Source: Solibacillus sp. FSL R7-0682
GTDB taxonomy: Bacteria > Bacillota > Bacilli > Bacillales_A > Planococcaceae
Assembly (NCBI RefSeq): GCF_038005985.1
Contig: NZ_JBBOUI010000001.1
Location: forward strand, 2,624,001-2,688,000
Reading direction: 5' to 3'
Length of the DNA: 64,000 nt
Below, one piece after another: positions 14,024 to 61,468 of the stretch. How positions within the stretch are numbered: the first letter of the stretch is position 1; each line of letters starts with the position of its first letter. The notes under the pieces were generated by a model. It was not told where the DNA came from, ran no database searches, and saw only the letters and a list, made by a program, of their open reading frames with translations. The position numbers and the translations under genes were made by a program.

Positions 14024-14045
14024 AGCAGTAAATTATATTTAACTT

Positions 14046-14073
14046 AAAGCATGGGACTCTATTTCCATGCTTT
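14046..14073 (+). terminator. Terminator of the PurC-like gene
   Basis: AAAGCATGG and CCATGCTTT pair around a ten-base loop, followed by a T-run. Confidence 0.85.
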
Positions 14074-14171
14074 TTTTATACCACCTCTTTCCTTTTGATA
14101 CTTAACGTGCTATACTTACTTTCGTACTTCGACGCGTTGAAGCGCGAAATTGATTAAAGGAGTTTTGATTT

Positions 14172-15551
14172 GTGATTATCAAACAGCAGCTAAAACCACA
14201 TCTTTTAGAAGCATTATTCATCATGCTTTTGATTATTTCTATTATTTCTTATTCAATCATTCAGTTAGAAAGTGTGCCCCATATTCCTATTTTAATCTCG
14301 ATTTGTTTACTCATTTTATATGGCGTAATAAAAAAAGTACCATACCAATCGTTGGAAAAAAGTATGGTAAGCTCAGTCTCAACAAGTATTAGTGCCATTT
14401 ATATCTTTTTATTAATCGGCATTTTAATTAGTAGCTGGCTCATCAGTGGAACGATTCCTACTTTACTGTACATTGGATTTTCTATCGTTTCCGCAAGCTT
14501 TTTTTATGCCATTGTCTTTATTATTACAAGTATTATCGGAACTGCAATTGGAAGCTCCTTGACAACAGTAGCTACGGTTGGAGTAGCAATGATTGGGGTG
14601 GCAACTTCTATTGAGGCATCCATTTTCATTACTGCAGGGGCGATTGTTTCCGGGGCATTTTTTGGCGATAAGATGTCACCACTTTCCGATACTACGAATT
14701 TAGCCTCATCAATTGTTGGGATTGATTTATTTACCCACATTAGAAATATGATGTTTACAACTGTGCCAGTGTTTATTTTATCATTGATTGGCTATGCAAT
14801 TCTTTCTCCAAGTAGTGAAACGATCGACGGACAATTAATTACACAGTACAAAGAAACACTAATAGCTACTAATCTCGTGCAATGGTATGCAATCATCCCA
14901 CTCTTCCTATTAATCCTTTGTACTGTATTGAAAGTCCCGAGTATGGCAACATTAGCAATAAGTGCAATGAGCGGAATTATCCTTTCATATTTCCATAGTT
15001 CAATATCTTTACAGCAATTATTTATGATTTTATATGAGGGCTTTACATTAAATACTGGGGTCGAAGCAATCGATTCATTATTGTCCCGCGGCGGTATGAA
15101 TAGTATGCTGTTTACAATCATTTTAATTGTGCTGTCATTATCTATGGGTGGCTTATTGTTTGCTTTGGGGATTATACAAACATTACTGCAATCCATACAA
15201 ACGTTGCTTACATCAATTGGTAAAGTTATTACTGGCTCAGCTTTAACTGCCATTTTTATTAATATTGTTATCGGTGAACAGTATTTATCTCTTTTATTAA
15301 CAGGAGAGGCTTATAAAGAAAAATTCAAAAGTATGAAGCTTCATCCTAAAAATTTGGCACGGGTAATTGAAGATGCAGGTACTGTTATTAATCCACTTGT
15401 TCCTTGGAGTGTTTGTGGGTTATTTATTGCTTCTACACTTGAAGTTAGTGTCATAGATTATTTACCCTTTGCCTTTTTCTGTTTACTAAGCCCAATTATG
15501 ACGATTCTATTTGGATGGTTAAATATTACTATAACAAAAGAAACGCACTAG
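14172..15551 (+). CDS. NhaC-family Na+/H+ antiporter
   Basis: A 459-residue integral membrane protein with about 11-12 hydrophobic segments. It carries the family blocks GDKMSPLSDTTNLA (about 165-178) and EDAGTVINPLVPWS (about 399-412), typical of NhaC/MleN antiporters that exchange Na+ or H+, in MleN coupled to malate/lactate. The substrate cannot be fixed from sequence. The start is GTG 14172 behind AAAGGAG. It is monocistronic; its terminator stem overlaps its own stop codon. Confidence 0.88.
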   Translation: MIIKQQLKPHLLEALFIMLLIISIISYSIIQLESVPHIPILISICLLILYGVIKKVPYQSLEKSMVSSVSTSISAIYIFLLIGILISSWLISGTIPTLLYIGFSIVSASFFYAIVFIITSIIGTAIGSSLTTVATVGVAMIGVATSIEASIFITAGAIVSGAFFGDKMSPLSDTTNLASSIVGIDLFTHIRNMMFTTVPVFILSLIGYAILSPSSETIDGQLITQYKETLIATNLVQWYAIIPLFLLILCTVLKVPSMATLAISAMSGIILSYFHSSISLQQLFMILYEGFTLNTGVEAIDSLLSRGGMNSMLFTIILIVLSLSMGGLLFALGIIQTLLQSIQTLLTSIGKVITGSALTAIFINIVIGEQYLSLLLTGEAYKEKFKSMKLHPKNLARVIEDAGTVINPLVPWSVCGLFIASTLEVSVIDYLPFAFFCLLSPIMTILFGWLNITITKETH

Positions 15552-21148: not shown

Positions 21149-22288
21149 TTATACAGCTTCTCTCTTTCCAAAAATTAGTTTTAATAGCGGTGGTGTAACG
21201 ATTGTCGTTACGATAATGACAATAATCATTGATGTATAGTAATTAGAAGGGAGTAATCCACTTTCTAATCCCATCGCTGCTAAAATTAGCGCTACTTCTC
21301 CTCTTGAAATCATTCCAGCACCAACGCCCATCGAGGATCTTGTATTAAATCCAGCTACCTTTGCCCCTATGCCCGATCCTACGAATTTCGATAAAATCGC
21401 AACTACTGAAAACAGCAGAATAAATCCAATTTGATTTCCAATCCCGTCGAATGAAACGGCTAATCCAATACTGACGAAGAAGAATGGAACGAAAATACCA
21501 TATGCAATTGGCTCCACCTTATGTTCAATTTCTTTTTTATAATCAGTTTGTGCAATCGCAATTCCGGCAAAAAACGCACCGATAATTCCTGCAATTCCTA
21601 AAACTTCTGCAAAGTATGATAAACCAAAACATATTATCAAACCTGCACTTAAAATTGATTCAGTAACTTTAAATTTCTTAAATATGCGAATAAAGTGTGG
21701 AATAAACCATTTTGCTAATAAAATTAACACAACAAAGAATAAGACTTTTTTACCAATCAACAGCCCAATATTCGTATCAGAACCTGCGAAGAAACTCATG
21801 GCAATTGCGATTAAAATAACTACAACAATATCATCAATTACTGCAGCACCTAATAATGTAGAACCCTCTTTACTATTTAACCAACCTAATTCTCGTAAAG
21901 CTTGGACCGAAATACTTACAGAAGTAGCTGATAATAAAAGTCCAATAAAGATTGATTCACCTGTGGACATACCATAATATTGCGCACCAGCAAATCCCAA
22001 TACAATTGGAAGAATGATTCCACCTAATGCAACATAAATTGCTGCCTTTTTATTTTTATTCATTTCTTGTAGATCTGTTTCAAGACCTGCTAAAAACATT
22101 AGTAGTAAAACCCCAATTTGACTAAAAACGGCTAATAATTCGGTATCGTGTATCCAACCTAATAATGCTGGACCTAAAATAATACCAACAATAATTTTAC
22201 CTAAAACAGAAGGTTGCCCCAATCTTGCAGAAATATGTCCCGCTAATTTAGTAGCAAATAAAACTAGAACTATTTGTAAAATAAACAT
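21149..22288 (-). CDS. CPA2-family cation:proton antiporter (copy 1)
   Basis: A 379-residue membrane protein with about 12 segments and no C-terminal TrkA-N/RCK domain. It has the KefB/NapA-type blocks GQPSVLGKIIVGIILGPALL near the N-terminus, FLAGLETDL, and the paired acidic residues AAVIDDIVV (the ion-binding DD) in the middle. It exchanges K+ or Na+ for H+. A close paralog lies at 60205-61350. The ATG follows AAAGGGG, and the leader carries a conserved terminator-like hairpin shared with that paralog (22312-22355). Confidence 0.9.
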   Translation of the reverse strand: MFILQIVLVLFATKLAGHISARLGQPSVLGKIIVGIILGPALLGWIHDTELLAVFSQIGVLLLMFLAGLETDLQEMNKNKKAAIYVALGGIILPIVLGFAGAQYYGMSTGESIFIGLLLSATSVSISVQALRELGWLNSKEGSTLLGAAVIDDIVVVILIAIAMSFFAGSDTNIGLLIGKKVLFFVVLILLAKWFIPHFIRIFKKFKVTESILSAGLIICFGLSYFAEVLGIAGIIGAFFAGIAIAQTDYKKEIEHKVEPIAYGIFVPFFFVSIGLAVSFDGIGNQIGFILLFSVVAILSKFVGSGIGAKVAGFNTRSSMGVGAGMISRGEVALILAAMGLESGLLPSNYYTSMIIVIIVTTIVTPPLLKLIFGKREAV

Positions 22289-22311
22289 AAATTTCCCCTT
22301 TCAACATAAAA

Positions 22312-22355
22312 AAGACCAGGAGGTGCCGTAGTTGACTACGGCTCCACCTGGTCTT
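22312..22355 (-). ncRNA. Leader hairpin of antiporter copy 1 (candidate cis-regulatory RNA)
   Basis: On the minus strand AAGACCAGG and CCTGGTCTT form the base stem, UGGA/ACCU an internal region, and GCCGUAG/CUACGGC the upper stem under a UCAA loop. A run of six T follows, then the ribosome binding site. The promoter lies only about 25-30 bases upstream of the hairpin, so the hairpin is nearly the whole 5' UTR. The same arrangement with shared internal bases precedes the paralog at 61375-61416. Confidence 0.6.
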
Positions 22356-22381
22356 GCATGTTATTTAATGTTTGTAAGATT

Positions 22382-22410
22382 ATTATACTACATTTTTATT
22401 CTTAATACAA
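22382..22410 (-). promoter_or_regulatory. Sigma-A promoter of antiporter copy 1
   Basis: TTGTAT, 17 bases, TATAAT on the minus strand, a near-consensus promoter placed directly before the leader hairpin. Confidence 0.65.
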
Positions 22411-22451: not shown

Positions 22452-22484
22452 AAACGACTTCTCGAAAAAATTCGAGAGCCGTTT
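22452..22484 (-). terminator. Terminator of the DUF47-pit operon
   Basis: AAACGGCTCTCGAA pairs with TTCGAGAAGTCGTTT on the minus strand with a short T-rich loop and TT tail, five bases past the pit stop codon. Confidence 0.8.
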
Positions 22485-25335: not shown

Positions 25336-25451
25336 TTTTCACTCCTTCAAACGATAAATTTCTATATTTTTACTTTAGCATATCATTTGTAAATTTGCGC
25401 CCAATTTCATACAAACATTATGTAAACATGCTTCTTCAAAATTATAGAAAA

Positions 25452-25488
25452 AGAGCCACTTTGTAAGTTTCACTTACAAAGCAGCTCC
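25452..25488 (-). terminator. Terminator of the dynA-sulfurtransferase operon
   Basis: GAGCTGCTTTGTAAGT pairs with ACTTACAAAGTGGCTC on the minus strand, followed by TTTTT. Confidence 0.85.
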
Positions 25489-25497
25489 TCAAACTAA

Positions 25498-26310
25498 CTA
25501 TAAATTTTCGCCAGTTTCAATTGTATGATGCTGGATCCAATCACTGTATCCACCCATATAAATTTTAATATTTTTATAACCTGCTTCGACAAGGACTGAA
25601 TATACAGGTGTCGCCGTAACACCAGAACCACAGTAAACAACAATCTCATCTTCCTTACTCACCTTTTCAAGCAATGAAGAGGTAATTACAAACCCAGATT
25701 GATCTTTTAACTGCTCCCAATCATAATTTTTCGCAGTTGGAATATGGCCAGCAATTGGGTCAAGTGGTTCAAATTCGCCCTTGTAGCGTCCATTAGCTCG
25801 TGCATCCAATAATGTCGCTTGATGATTACCTTCGACAATATCGAGCACTTCACTTCGCGTCACTAAAATTGAATCATTCCATTTTATATCTAGCTTTGTT
25901 GGAATATAATGAGGGATTTCTGTAGACGTATTAAAGCCTGCAGCCACAAGCGCATCATACCCGCCATTGACGATATACGCATGTTCAAAACCTGCGTATT
26001 TTAACATCCACCAAGCTCTTGTCGCAAAAGGAGATGCACCCTGGTCATAAATATAGATTGCATCATTGTTTTGTAACCCAGCTTGCTCAAACAACTGCTG
26101 TAATTGGTATTTATCAGGCAATGGGTGACGTCCTTCTTTTTTGGTCATATCTGAAAGGTTTTTATCTAAATCCCAATAAATTGCACCTTCAATATGTGAT
26201 TGTACATAAGTTTGCAGTCCTAATTCAGGATTTTGCATATCAAATCGCGTATCAATAAATCGTCCATCACGTTCTAATTTATCGGCTGTAACAAACACTT
26301 GTGCCACCAA
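25498..26310 (-). CDS. Sulfurtransferase (tandem rhodanese)
   Basis: A 270-residue protein with two rhodanese domains. The N-terminal domain (about 8-130) is catalytically silent. The C-terminal domain (about 150-265) carries the active-site cysteine loop CGSGVTA in VVYCGSGVTATPV. The loop pattern CGSGVTA is typical of 3-mercaptopyruvate sulfurtransferases; thiosulfate use is also possible. It starts with GTG behind AAGGAGG, ten bases after dynA ends, so it is the second gene of that operon, although no functional link to dynamin is known. Confidence 0.92.
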   Translation of the reverse strand: MVAQVFVTADKLERDGRFIDTRFDMQNPELGLQTYVQSHIEGAIYWDLDKNLSDMTKKEGRHPLPDKYQLQQLFEQAGLQNNDAIYIYDQGASPFATRAWWMLKYAGFEHAYIVNGGYDALVAAGFNTSTEIPHYIPTKLDIKWNDSILVTRSEVLDIVEGNHQATLLDARANGRYKGEFEPLDPIAGHIPTAKNYDWEQLKDQSGFVITSSLLEKVSKEDEIVVYCGSGVTATPVYSVLVEAGYKNIKIYMGGYSDWIQHHTIETGENL

Positions 26311-42744: not shown

Positions 42745-43142
42745 AAAAGCATCAATAATCAATAAGCCATGTTTTGTTCCTAAGTACTCAAACAGCTTGC
42801 GCCTCGTACGACTAGGTAGTAATCATCTATCTACGACTAATATAGCCGTCCCTCCATCCGTTCATTTCCTTCAGGAGAGTGCCCCTACCATAATTTGGGT
42901 TTCTCACTCATGGGGTTTACCTCGTTCCACCTTATAACTTTCATTATAAGCTCCGTCACTGTGGCACTTTCAGGAAGTTTCGTCCATATCATAAGACTTA
43001 GGAGTTCCTTCCGCCGTCAAGCTAAAGCTTGCCTTACCTTATTTTTTCAGTAAGCACGAACACTACGCGCATCTCAGCAGCGTGTGAGCATGGACTTTCC
43101 TCTACGATTTAGAAACCGCAGCGATTACTCGAATATTGATGT
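42745..43142 (-). ncRNA. rnpB: RNase P RNA, B-type
   Basis: The minus strand reads GAGTAATCGCTGCGG near the 5' end, AGAGGAAAGTCCATGCTC (conserved CR I), the CACTACG/GTGTTCGTG region, GAAAGTGCCACAGTGACG, GTGGAACGAGGTAAACCCC, and ends GGAACAAAACATGGCTTA. These are the universal and Bacillus-type B landmarks. The length (about 400) matches. It is the catalytic RNA that matures tRNA 5' ends. It is flanked by gpsB as in B. subtilis. Ends are approximate (the 5' end is placed from the promoter). Confidence 0.95.
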
Positions 43143-60204: not shown

Positions 60205-61350
60205 TTATTTTTGTGTTTGACGGTCTCCAAAAATCCCTTTTAACATTGGTGGCGTCACTAATGTTGTAATGATGATTACGATGACCATCGGGGTATAATC
60301 TTCAGCTGGTAATAATCCGCTCGTTAAGCCCATACCTGCTAAAATTAACGCTACTTCCCCTCGGGAAATCATCCCAGATCCAATGCCGATTGAAGATCTC
60401 CAGTTGAAGCCTGCTAATTTGGCACCAAGACCTGAACCGATTAGCTTTGATAAAATAGCAACGATTGAGAAGATGACTAAAAACCAAATATTTTCTGAAA
60501 TACCAGCAAACGTTACAGATAAACCGATACTCACAAAGAAGAACGGTACAAAAATACCACTCGCAATTGGTTCTACCTTATGCTCAACTGTTTCTTTAAA
60601 TTCGGTACGACCAATGGCAATCCCCATAAAGAATGCACCAATAATTGTTGCAATACCAAAATAATGCTCCCCAATATACGCAAGGGCAAAGCAGGCTACA
60701 AGCGCTCCACTTAATACTGCTTCTGTGACCTTTAGTTTACTGAATGCTTTTAAGAATGGTGGAATAACCCATTTCATAACGACAAATAATAGTACAAAGA
60801 AGAATATTTTCCCTCCGATAAGCGTTGGAATTGACACGTTTTCGCCTACTAAGAAACTCATTGCAATTGCAATTAACACGACAACGATAATATCGTCTAA
60901 TACGGCTGCTCCAAGTAGTACAGACCCTTCTTTACTTTTTAACCAGCCAATTTCATTTAATGTTTGCACAGAAATACTTACAGAAGTAGCTGCTAACGTT
61001 AATCCGATGAAAATCGCCTGTCCTTGTGTTAACCCGAATGTTAGTGCTAGTGGATAACTCATTGCAATCGGTAATAGGACACCGCCTACGGCAACAAGCA
61101 CAGCCCCTTTCATATTGGCATTCAGATCTTCTAAATCTGTTTCTAGACCTGCTAAAAACATAAGTAAAATTACACCGATTTGACTGAATGTTTGCATAAT
61201 TTCATTGTCAGTAATCCAGCCAAGCATTGCAGGACCAATTATAATACCAATTAAAATCTTACCAAGTACAGATGGTTGCCCTAGTCGAACACTAAAATGT
61301 CCAGCTATCTTTGTTGCGAGCAATACAATGACAATCTGAAAAATGAACAT
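60205..61350 (-). CDS. CPA2-family cation:proton antiporter (copy 2)
   Basis: A 381-residue paralog of the protein at 21149-22288, alignable over its whole length (GQPSVLGKILIGIIIGPAML, FLAGLETDL, AAVLDDIIVV, VPFFFVSIGL). It has about 12 membrane segments and no C-terminal regulatory domain. It exchanges K+ or Na+ for H+. The two copies are separated by 38 kb and both follow the same kind of leader hairpin, so regulation is probably shared or parallel. The start ATG follows GGAAAGGGG. Confidence 0.9.
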   Translation of the reverse strand: MFIFQIVIVLLATKIAGHFSVRLGQPSVLGKILIGIIIGPAMLGWITDNEIMQTFSQIGVILLMFLAGLETDLEDLNANMKGAVLVAVGGVLLPIAMSYPLALTFGLTQGQAIFIGLTLAATSVSISVQTLNEIGWLKSKEGSVLLGAAVLDDIIVVVLIAIAMSFLVGENVSIPTLIGGKIFFFVLLFVVMKWVIPPFLKAFSKLKVTEAVLSGALVACFALAYIGEHYFGIATIIGAFFMGIAIGRTEFKETVEHKVEPIASGIFVPFFFVSIGLSVTFAGISENIWFLVIFSIVAILSKLIGSGLGAKLAGFNWRSSIGIGSGMISRGEVALILAGMGLTSGLLPAEDYTPMVIVIIITTLVTPPMLKGIFGDRQTQK

Positions 61351-61374
61351 AAAATTCCCCTTTCCTTATACAAA

Positions 61375-61416
61375 AAGGCATAGTAGTGCCAGAATTGACT
61401 GACTCCACCATGCCTT
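61375..61416 (-). ncRNA. Leader hairpin of antiporter copy 2 (candidate cis-regulatory RNA)
   Basis: AAGGCATGG and CTATGCCTT form the base stem, UGGA/ACUA the internal region, and GUCAG/CUGGC the upper stem under a UCAAUU loop, followed by five T. The words GGTGGAG, AGTCAA and GGCAC are shared with the hairpin at 22312-22355, while the outer stem bases differ and still pair. Confidence 0.6.
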
Positions 61417-61425
61417 ACTTATGTA

Positions 61426-61468
61426 TTAGAATAATAATTATTCTAACTCTAGTCTTTTAAAAACGCAA
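61426..61468 (-). promoter_or_regulatory. Promoter and dyad operator of antiporter copy 2
   Basis: On the minus strand TTGCGT, 17 bases, TAGAAT. A perfect 21-base inverted repeat with a single central base (61426-61446; arms TTAGAATAAT/ATTATTCTAA) covers the -10 box and predicted start. Its composition is like Fur/PerR-family boxes. Confidence 0.5.

Follow-up and report, generated by a model that had tools for sequence, protein, structure and literature searches.

Bacterial sodium sensing is poorly known. As PMC9337991 describes it, selective Na+ sensing coupled to gene regulation had been demonstrated for just one protein, and the Na+-I riboswitch (DUF1646 motif, RF03071) is rare. This validated riboswitch has been reported before genes for DUF1646 proteins and for CPA2 antiporters annotated as kefB, and in the tested example it is an ON switch that acts through a terminator (PMC9337991). 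The Li+-I and Li+-II riboswitches and the Na+-II variant (nhaA-I and nhaA-II motifs) stand before nhaA and nhaD genes (PMC9646797). In the HMP-PP riboswitch (thiS motif) the aptamer is embedded in the terminator; the two states are mutually exclusive and the device is an ON switch (PMC6478431). Here we present a hairpin, placed between a promoter and a Na+/H+ antiporter gene: an RNA control element that is real, common to many bacteria and, it appears, not described before. It probably lets the antiporter gene be read only when the cell must pump sodium out.

Set beside these systems, the element is best called a new class within a known kind, the ion- or ligand-responsive transcription attenuators. 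It resembles the Na+-I riboswitch in the Na+ transport genes associated with both, a likeness of shared genes and not of membership, but in Na+-I the aptamer has two stems and precedes an expression platform that is separate from it. With Li+-I, Li+-II and Na+-II it has the association with nhaA and nhaD genes in common, whereas those RNAs, as PMC9646797 describes them, mostly control translation, with terminator forms only in Deltaproteobacteria. As in the HMP-PP riboswitch, the most conserved bases lie inside the terminator hairpin (PMC6478431); the element has its conserved bases within the terminator stem, and this likeness is one of architecture only. The HMP-PP riboswitch differs in its sequence, its genes and its ligand, a thiamin precursor, and a pseudoknot aptamer fold can be proposed for it but not for the element; by analogy, it would be the best mechanistic model. 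LicT/BglG-type sites, too, occupy the leader hairpin of one gene, with a terminator overlapping the site, but the element matches them only weakly and occurs without sugar genes.

Consistent with this, Rfam 15 gave no match at gathering score to the element in the window (the whole 64,000-nucleotide stretch of Solibacillus sp. FSL R7-0682 analysed here) or in 17 element-bearing loci. Over the same window and loci, RF03071, Li+-I, Li+-II and Na+-II likewise had no gathering-score match, and RF03071 had none in the organism's own genome at E 0.001; nor did any Rfam 15 family, one for the HMP-PP (thiS) motif included if Rfam 15 has it, reach its gathering score at the elements. The gathering-score matches that do occur are RNase P alone in the window (bacterial class B RNA, RF00011, 322 bits, 42758-43136, minus strand), a tRNA among nine loci that bear the leader and, among eight further loci, a SAM riboswitch and a group II intron that both lie away from the elements. 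Candidates from a lenient scan fell far under their gathering scores (rli60, 34.8 against 60; sau-5971, 26.1 against 90; microRNA models) and were set aside, as was the LicT/BglG element (20.3 bits against 80). We also found no description of the element in the open-access literature, which is weak evidence of absence as subscription papers and preprints lie outside that search.

The window carries two antiporter genes of the Na_H_Exchanger (PF00999)/CPA2 type on the minus strand: copy 1 (379 aa; 21149-22288, start at 22288) and copy 2 (381 aa; 60205-61350, start at 61350). Both leaders are short, with a terminator-like hairpin directly 5' of the ribosome binding site. In the direction of transcription, and all on the minus strand, copy 1 is preceded by a weak -35 box, TTGTAT (22405-22410; three of six consensus bases, unlisted by a simple promoter scan), a -10 box, TATAAT (22382-22387), the 5' leader motif ATTAAATA (22362-22369), which matches the AUURAAUA seen in 102 leaders of other bacteria, a 44-nucleotide hairpin evident from folding and sequence (22312-22355, with a U-run to 22308) and the ribosome binding site (22295-22301). 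The order of promoter, leader, hairpin with U-run, ribosome binding site and gene is as originally noted, but the leader before the hairpin is about 20 bases and not 25-30, if transcription starts 6-7 bases past the -10 box. Before copy 2, also on the minus strand, come the leader motif TTCTAATA (61424-61431), an imperfect match, the hairpin (61375-61416, from folding and sequence) and the ribosome binding site (61357-61363). A stable hairpin followed directly by a U-run, as in an intrinsic terminator, is found in both window copies. The copy 2 hairpin has a folding energy of -24.8 kcal/mol (z -6.55), and the full leaders have folding z-scores of -5.51 (copy 1) and -4.97 (copy 2). Simple scans listed neither the promoter nor the hairpin of copy 1, nor the copy 2 terminator; we read the copy 1 omissions as owing to the weak -35 box and the stem mismatches.

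The words GGTGGAG, AGTCAA and GGCAC, which had been proposed as common to the two hairpins, are exactly identical in both leaders; pattern search places the conserved core at 22332-22348 (GGTGGAG ... AGTCAA, minus strand) in copy 1 and at 61395-61409 (GGTGGAGTCAGTCAA, minus strand) in copy 2. A gapped pattern of the three words matches the organism's own 4.06 Mb genome at these two sites only (reversed-pattern control, 0) and, among 121 genomes of the family, seven genomes at 10 places in all (reversed control, 0). Loosening the pattern by one mismatch adds nothing (10 sites in the organism's own genome against 6 for the reversed control). The structural roles assigned to two of these words need correction: GGTGGAG is not an internal loop and sits in the lower stem with an A.A mismatch, plus a U.U mismatch in copy 1, and GGCAC is not a 3' flank but the 3' strand of the stem. 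The gene upstream of copy 1 (23506-22490, minus strand) has its own terminator-like hairpin at 22460-22477, and the copy 1 hairpin is therefore not simply the terminator of that gene.

When 61 genomes were searched at the protein level, 31 matches exceeded 500 bits: 13 belong to the copy 1 type and 16 to the copy 2 type, and genomes G017 and G010 contribute one each. Loop conservation in orthologous leaders, by which the original prediction was to be judged, was found throughout, the core including the GUCA loop being kept in the leaders of all 31. Among 12 more distant GerN-type matches (300-500 bits), the core is present in five (L030, L032, L034, L036 and L049) and the element went unrecognised in the other seven leaders. 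We assign the labels GerN-type, NhaP-type and NhaD-type from general knowledge; in Pfam the first two match Na_H_Exchanger and the third CitMHS. Across 29 window-type leaders the loop GTCA and the stem GG.GGAG.C are invariant, and copy 1 types have two additional base pairs between them, with both strands extended. The outer helix, originally noted to differ in sequence and still pair, covaries in these leaders: it is 95.6% paired, five pairs have changed on both sides, two-sided cell changes number 31 against 9.6 +- 2.9 in shuffles, and the covariation score is 0.319 against 0.169 +- 0.013. The persistence of the core, the covarying outer stems and the separate upstream terminator together support the proposal that these hairpins are cis-regulatory RNAs that would govern passage through a terminator before antiporter genes. 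In G108 (L008/L028), the copy 2 type antiporter gene lies farther from its hairpin, by about 200 additional bases.

The five distant leaders with the core pointed to a wider, commoner form of the element. To judge by sequence, the window copies are a variant of this wider element, whose general layout is AUURAAUA, about 11 bases, the block GGAGGAGYCUGUCACC, a 3' strand pairing back and a terminal U-run. Within the organism's own family, intermediates link the window form to the usual block GGAGGAGYCTGTCAMY: two genomes of the organism's genus have GGAGGAGTCAGTCAAC, another genus has GGTGGAGTCTGTCAAC, and in G117 the form GGAGGAGCCTGTCACA precedes a GerN-type gene. The family search turned up 35 places, spread over 34 of 151 genomes, where the reversed control had 8; of the 28 loci that were read, L254 and L255 look like chance matches. 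The AUURAAUA motif was found upstream of the block by an unsupervised search of 102 non-redundant leaders (log-likelihood 103.5 against 35-51 in six shuffled sets), and its sites lie 18 to 22 bases 5' of the block in 72 of them. After the block comes either a short loop or a longer apical stem with UANNUAUG, and then the pairing strand and the U-run; 62 of 78 Bacilli places passed a strict script test for hairpin and U-run, and several others show both by eye. In 32 long forms, 92.3% of cells pair and there are 12 two-sided cell changes against 3.9 in shuffles; the two-sided pairs number three, a figure reached in 67 of 500 shuffles. The arms vary as RNA pairs do, G.U included (A1 columns 29/75: GC 16, GU 16).

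NhaD-type leaders were also picked by their gene, which avoids the bias of searching with the block itself. Of 80 such leaders, 17 score at least 13 of 16 block matches, and 16 of these have the hairpin, L372 being false; the reverse-complement control reached 13 once and the reversed control at most 12. The element went unrecognised in 64 of the 80. In 22 gene-anchored elements (these 16 and six GerN-type), 11 of the 16 block positions are invariant, several of them mostly unpaired, an invariance that is flattered by selection at 13 or more matches; the partner strand drifts through G.U pairs by C/U or A/G switches. We read this asymmetry as suggesting that the 5' strand also has a part in a second state other than the terminator.

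Two covariance models describe the parts of this range. The model R2 was made from window-type variants alone, 28 of them; it scores 64.3 bits at 22308-22360 and 66.4 bits at 61372-61421, both copies being among its own sequences. In other groups it finds the element on the correct strand at 19 of 35 loci (the highest scores being 54.3 bits in L256, of the same family, and 40.0 bits in L101), misses it at 16 and gives four further matches elsewhere or on the opposite strand. At about 27 bits and below, a match supports homology by position alone, because R2 gives 26.1 bits to an ordinary terminator of the window. That terminator is the stem at 14041-14077, which lacks the block and lies behind the gene preceding an open frame (14172-15551, plus strand) that reads like a putative NhaC-type Na+/H+ antiporter. 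R1, built from 32 long-form sequences, finds many other elements and not the window copies; its best window match (25441-25515, 23.6 bits, E 0.011) is another terminator-like stem.

The usual block occurs at 78 places in 70 of 348 Bacilli genomes (32 of 135 genera), with six matches for the reversed pattern, and at 42 places in 29 of 150 genomes of the Negativicutes, the class of Pelosinus (reversed control, 0). The Clostridia sample is at chance (3 of 148 genomes against 3 control matches), the element being absent or rare there. An antiporter gene follows within 700 bases at 72 of the 78 Bacilli places: GerN-type at 45, NhaD-type at 16, NhaP-type at six and MrpA at five. The six places without one are L070, L083, L116 and L118, which have no convincing hairpin, and L102 and L124. 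Thirty-three Negativicutes loci were read: 27 stand before NhaD-type, NhaA or GerN-type genes, one before CitMHS_2 and four before other genes, and one is a chance match in coding sequence. A scan of named genomes gave at least 119 stretches, of which many lie in unrelated bacteria and match by chance; among the matches listed, 46 have the hairpin, of which 39 precede GerN-type (23), NhaD-type (11), MrpA (4) or NhaA (1) genes and seven precede none of these. At two Heyndrickxia-type loci the gene that follows is a DUF1646 gene (L198 by Pfam, L212 by clustering), and elements also stand before genes for dihydrodipicolinate reductase, a Cache/PAS sensor, a RelA/SpoT-type protein and DUF3953. As with riboswitches, a conserved sequence and structure is thus found before functionally coherent genes in distant taxa. 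RF03071, for its part, is present in six of 299 Bacilli genomes, in four above cut-off; in two, the gene immediately after it is of GerN type and 41% identical to the Paenibacillus protein, and its other sites precede what we read as putative V-type and P-type ATPase genes. One genome, G209, has both RNAs before different genes, the new element preceding mrpA.

Whole units, including the 5' motif, also occur in tandem: two units lie 217 bases apart before an NhaD-type gene in L128 (151-400), and in L117, L119 and L224 a second unit, with a compensating base change, lies between a small gene and the NhaD-type gene. The tandem copies in these four loci resemble tandem riboswitches. Several Paenibacillus leaders, L088 among them, have another terminator-like hairpin after the element, one that varies.

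The best explanation, which we put at about an even chance, is that Na+/H+ antiporter genes have a cis-acting RNA switch in which the hairpin is the expression platform and also, jointly with the short 5' motif, the sensor. Just past the promoter, the leader runs through AUURAAUA, a short spacer, the 5' strand GG(A/U)GGAG...GUCA, the downstream pairing strand, the U-run and the ribosome binding site. With little signal, the hairpin would close and polymerase would stop; with high cytosolic Na+, the nascent 5' strand and the leader motif would take a Na+-bound shape that blocks formation of the terminator, such that the antiporter is made and the device is an ON switch. The ligand would be Na+, presumably bound by the RNA without a protein. 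The best shared function of the NhaA, NhaD, Mrp, DUF1646 and GerN-type genes is Na+ extrusion. In its full form the proposal is of a new sodium riboswitch class of Bacilli and Negativicutes, with its aptamer folded into the terminator hairpin, which turns on NhaA, NhaD, NhaP, GerN, Mrp and DUF1646 antiporters and is repeated in tandem for a sharper response; we would neither favor this over its negation nor the reverse. No competing antiterminator fold could be derived, RNAalifold giving only four weak pairs on 40 short forms. Three other devices were considered and rejected: an upstream open reading frame (there is an AUG in the long-form loop, but by eye stops and indels break any common frame), a two-layer G-quadruplex (by eye, short forms have only three GG runs) and pairing of the loop with a downstream UUGA in copy 1, which is not retained in L012 or L023.

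The main rival to an RNA that binds Na+ itself is a protein antiterminator, that is, an RNA-binding regulator that recognises the 5' strand and the GUCA loop and through which Na+ or pH decides whether the terminator forms. That conservation mainly follows the linear sequence of the 5' strand and the loop speaks for it, as does the failure to find an RNA-only antiterminator fold, and the two-base-pair insertion tolerated between the parts (copy 1 against copy 2 type) would suit contact by a two-module protein. However, the block is identical in Bacilli and Negativicutes and recurs before unrelated antiporter families, no candidate regulator was found (in the course of an unsystematic search), and the LicT/BglG score noted above lies far below its threshold; we hold this rival to be possible but on balance doubtful. 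A switch of the same build could instead sense cytosolic pH, K+, Li+ or a small molecule linked to ion stress. Protons are also transported by these antiporter families, and in some of them K+ or Li+ as well. Related-looking genes are under Li+ riboswitch control (PMC9646797). Yet the common denominator of the genes served is best read as Na+, GerN-type genes elsewhere carry the Na+-I riboswitch, and no K+ uptake or pH-only genes are among the classified genes of the genus set, which together make a signal other than Na+ rather unlikely.

Nor do we give much weight to readings that dispense with an RNA sensor or its protein partner. An unregulated leader terminator or 5' mRNA stabiliser, conserved by descent, would have the ordinary terminator shape seen here, and the ordinary stem at 14041-14077 does reach its 26.1 bits with R2; however, descent cannot account for an identical 16-base block before unrelated gene families, for a fixed 5' strand against a drifting 3' strand, or for the tandem copies, and we judge it very improbable. 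An inverted repeat right behind a promoter is also where an operator bound by a repressor would usually lie, but arms that change as RNA pairs do, with G.U included, the far greater conservation of one arm and the U-run that then follows leave a DNA operator the least probable of these accounts, close to negligible.

Should the element respond to Na+, as the sodium-switch reading has it, these classes would use it more commonly than Na+-I for sodium control (70 of 348 Bacilli genomes against 6 of 299 for Na+-I). It would also add a compact terminator-embedded design beside the HMP-PP riboswitch and would give studies of salt and alkali tolerance an approach that can be tested directly.

Several individual loci have features of their own. 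A small protein is encoded after the element, before or instead of the antiporter, in L117 and L124 (also L119 and L224); in the first two it is weakly like MpsC (PF10057, below cut-off). A Negativicutes element (L306, 1500) precedes the gene for a sensor protein with Cache and PAS domains. On contig 16 of G467, a metagenome-assembled genome with four copies, about 1.9 kb separates two elements on opposite strands (L292 and L294), of which one precedes an NhaD-type gene and the other a dihydrodipicolinate reductase gene. Plasmid-borne copies were seen in Niallia (L248), before the gene for a DUF3953 small membrane protein, and in Priestia megaterium (L249), before a GerN-type gene.
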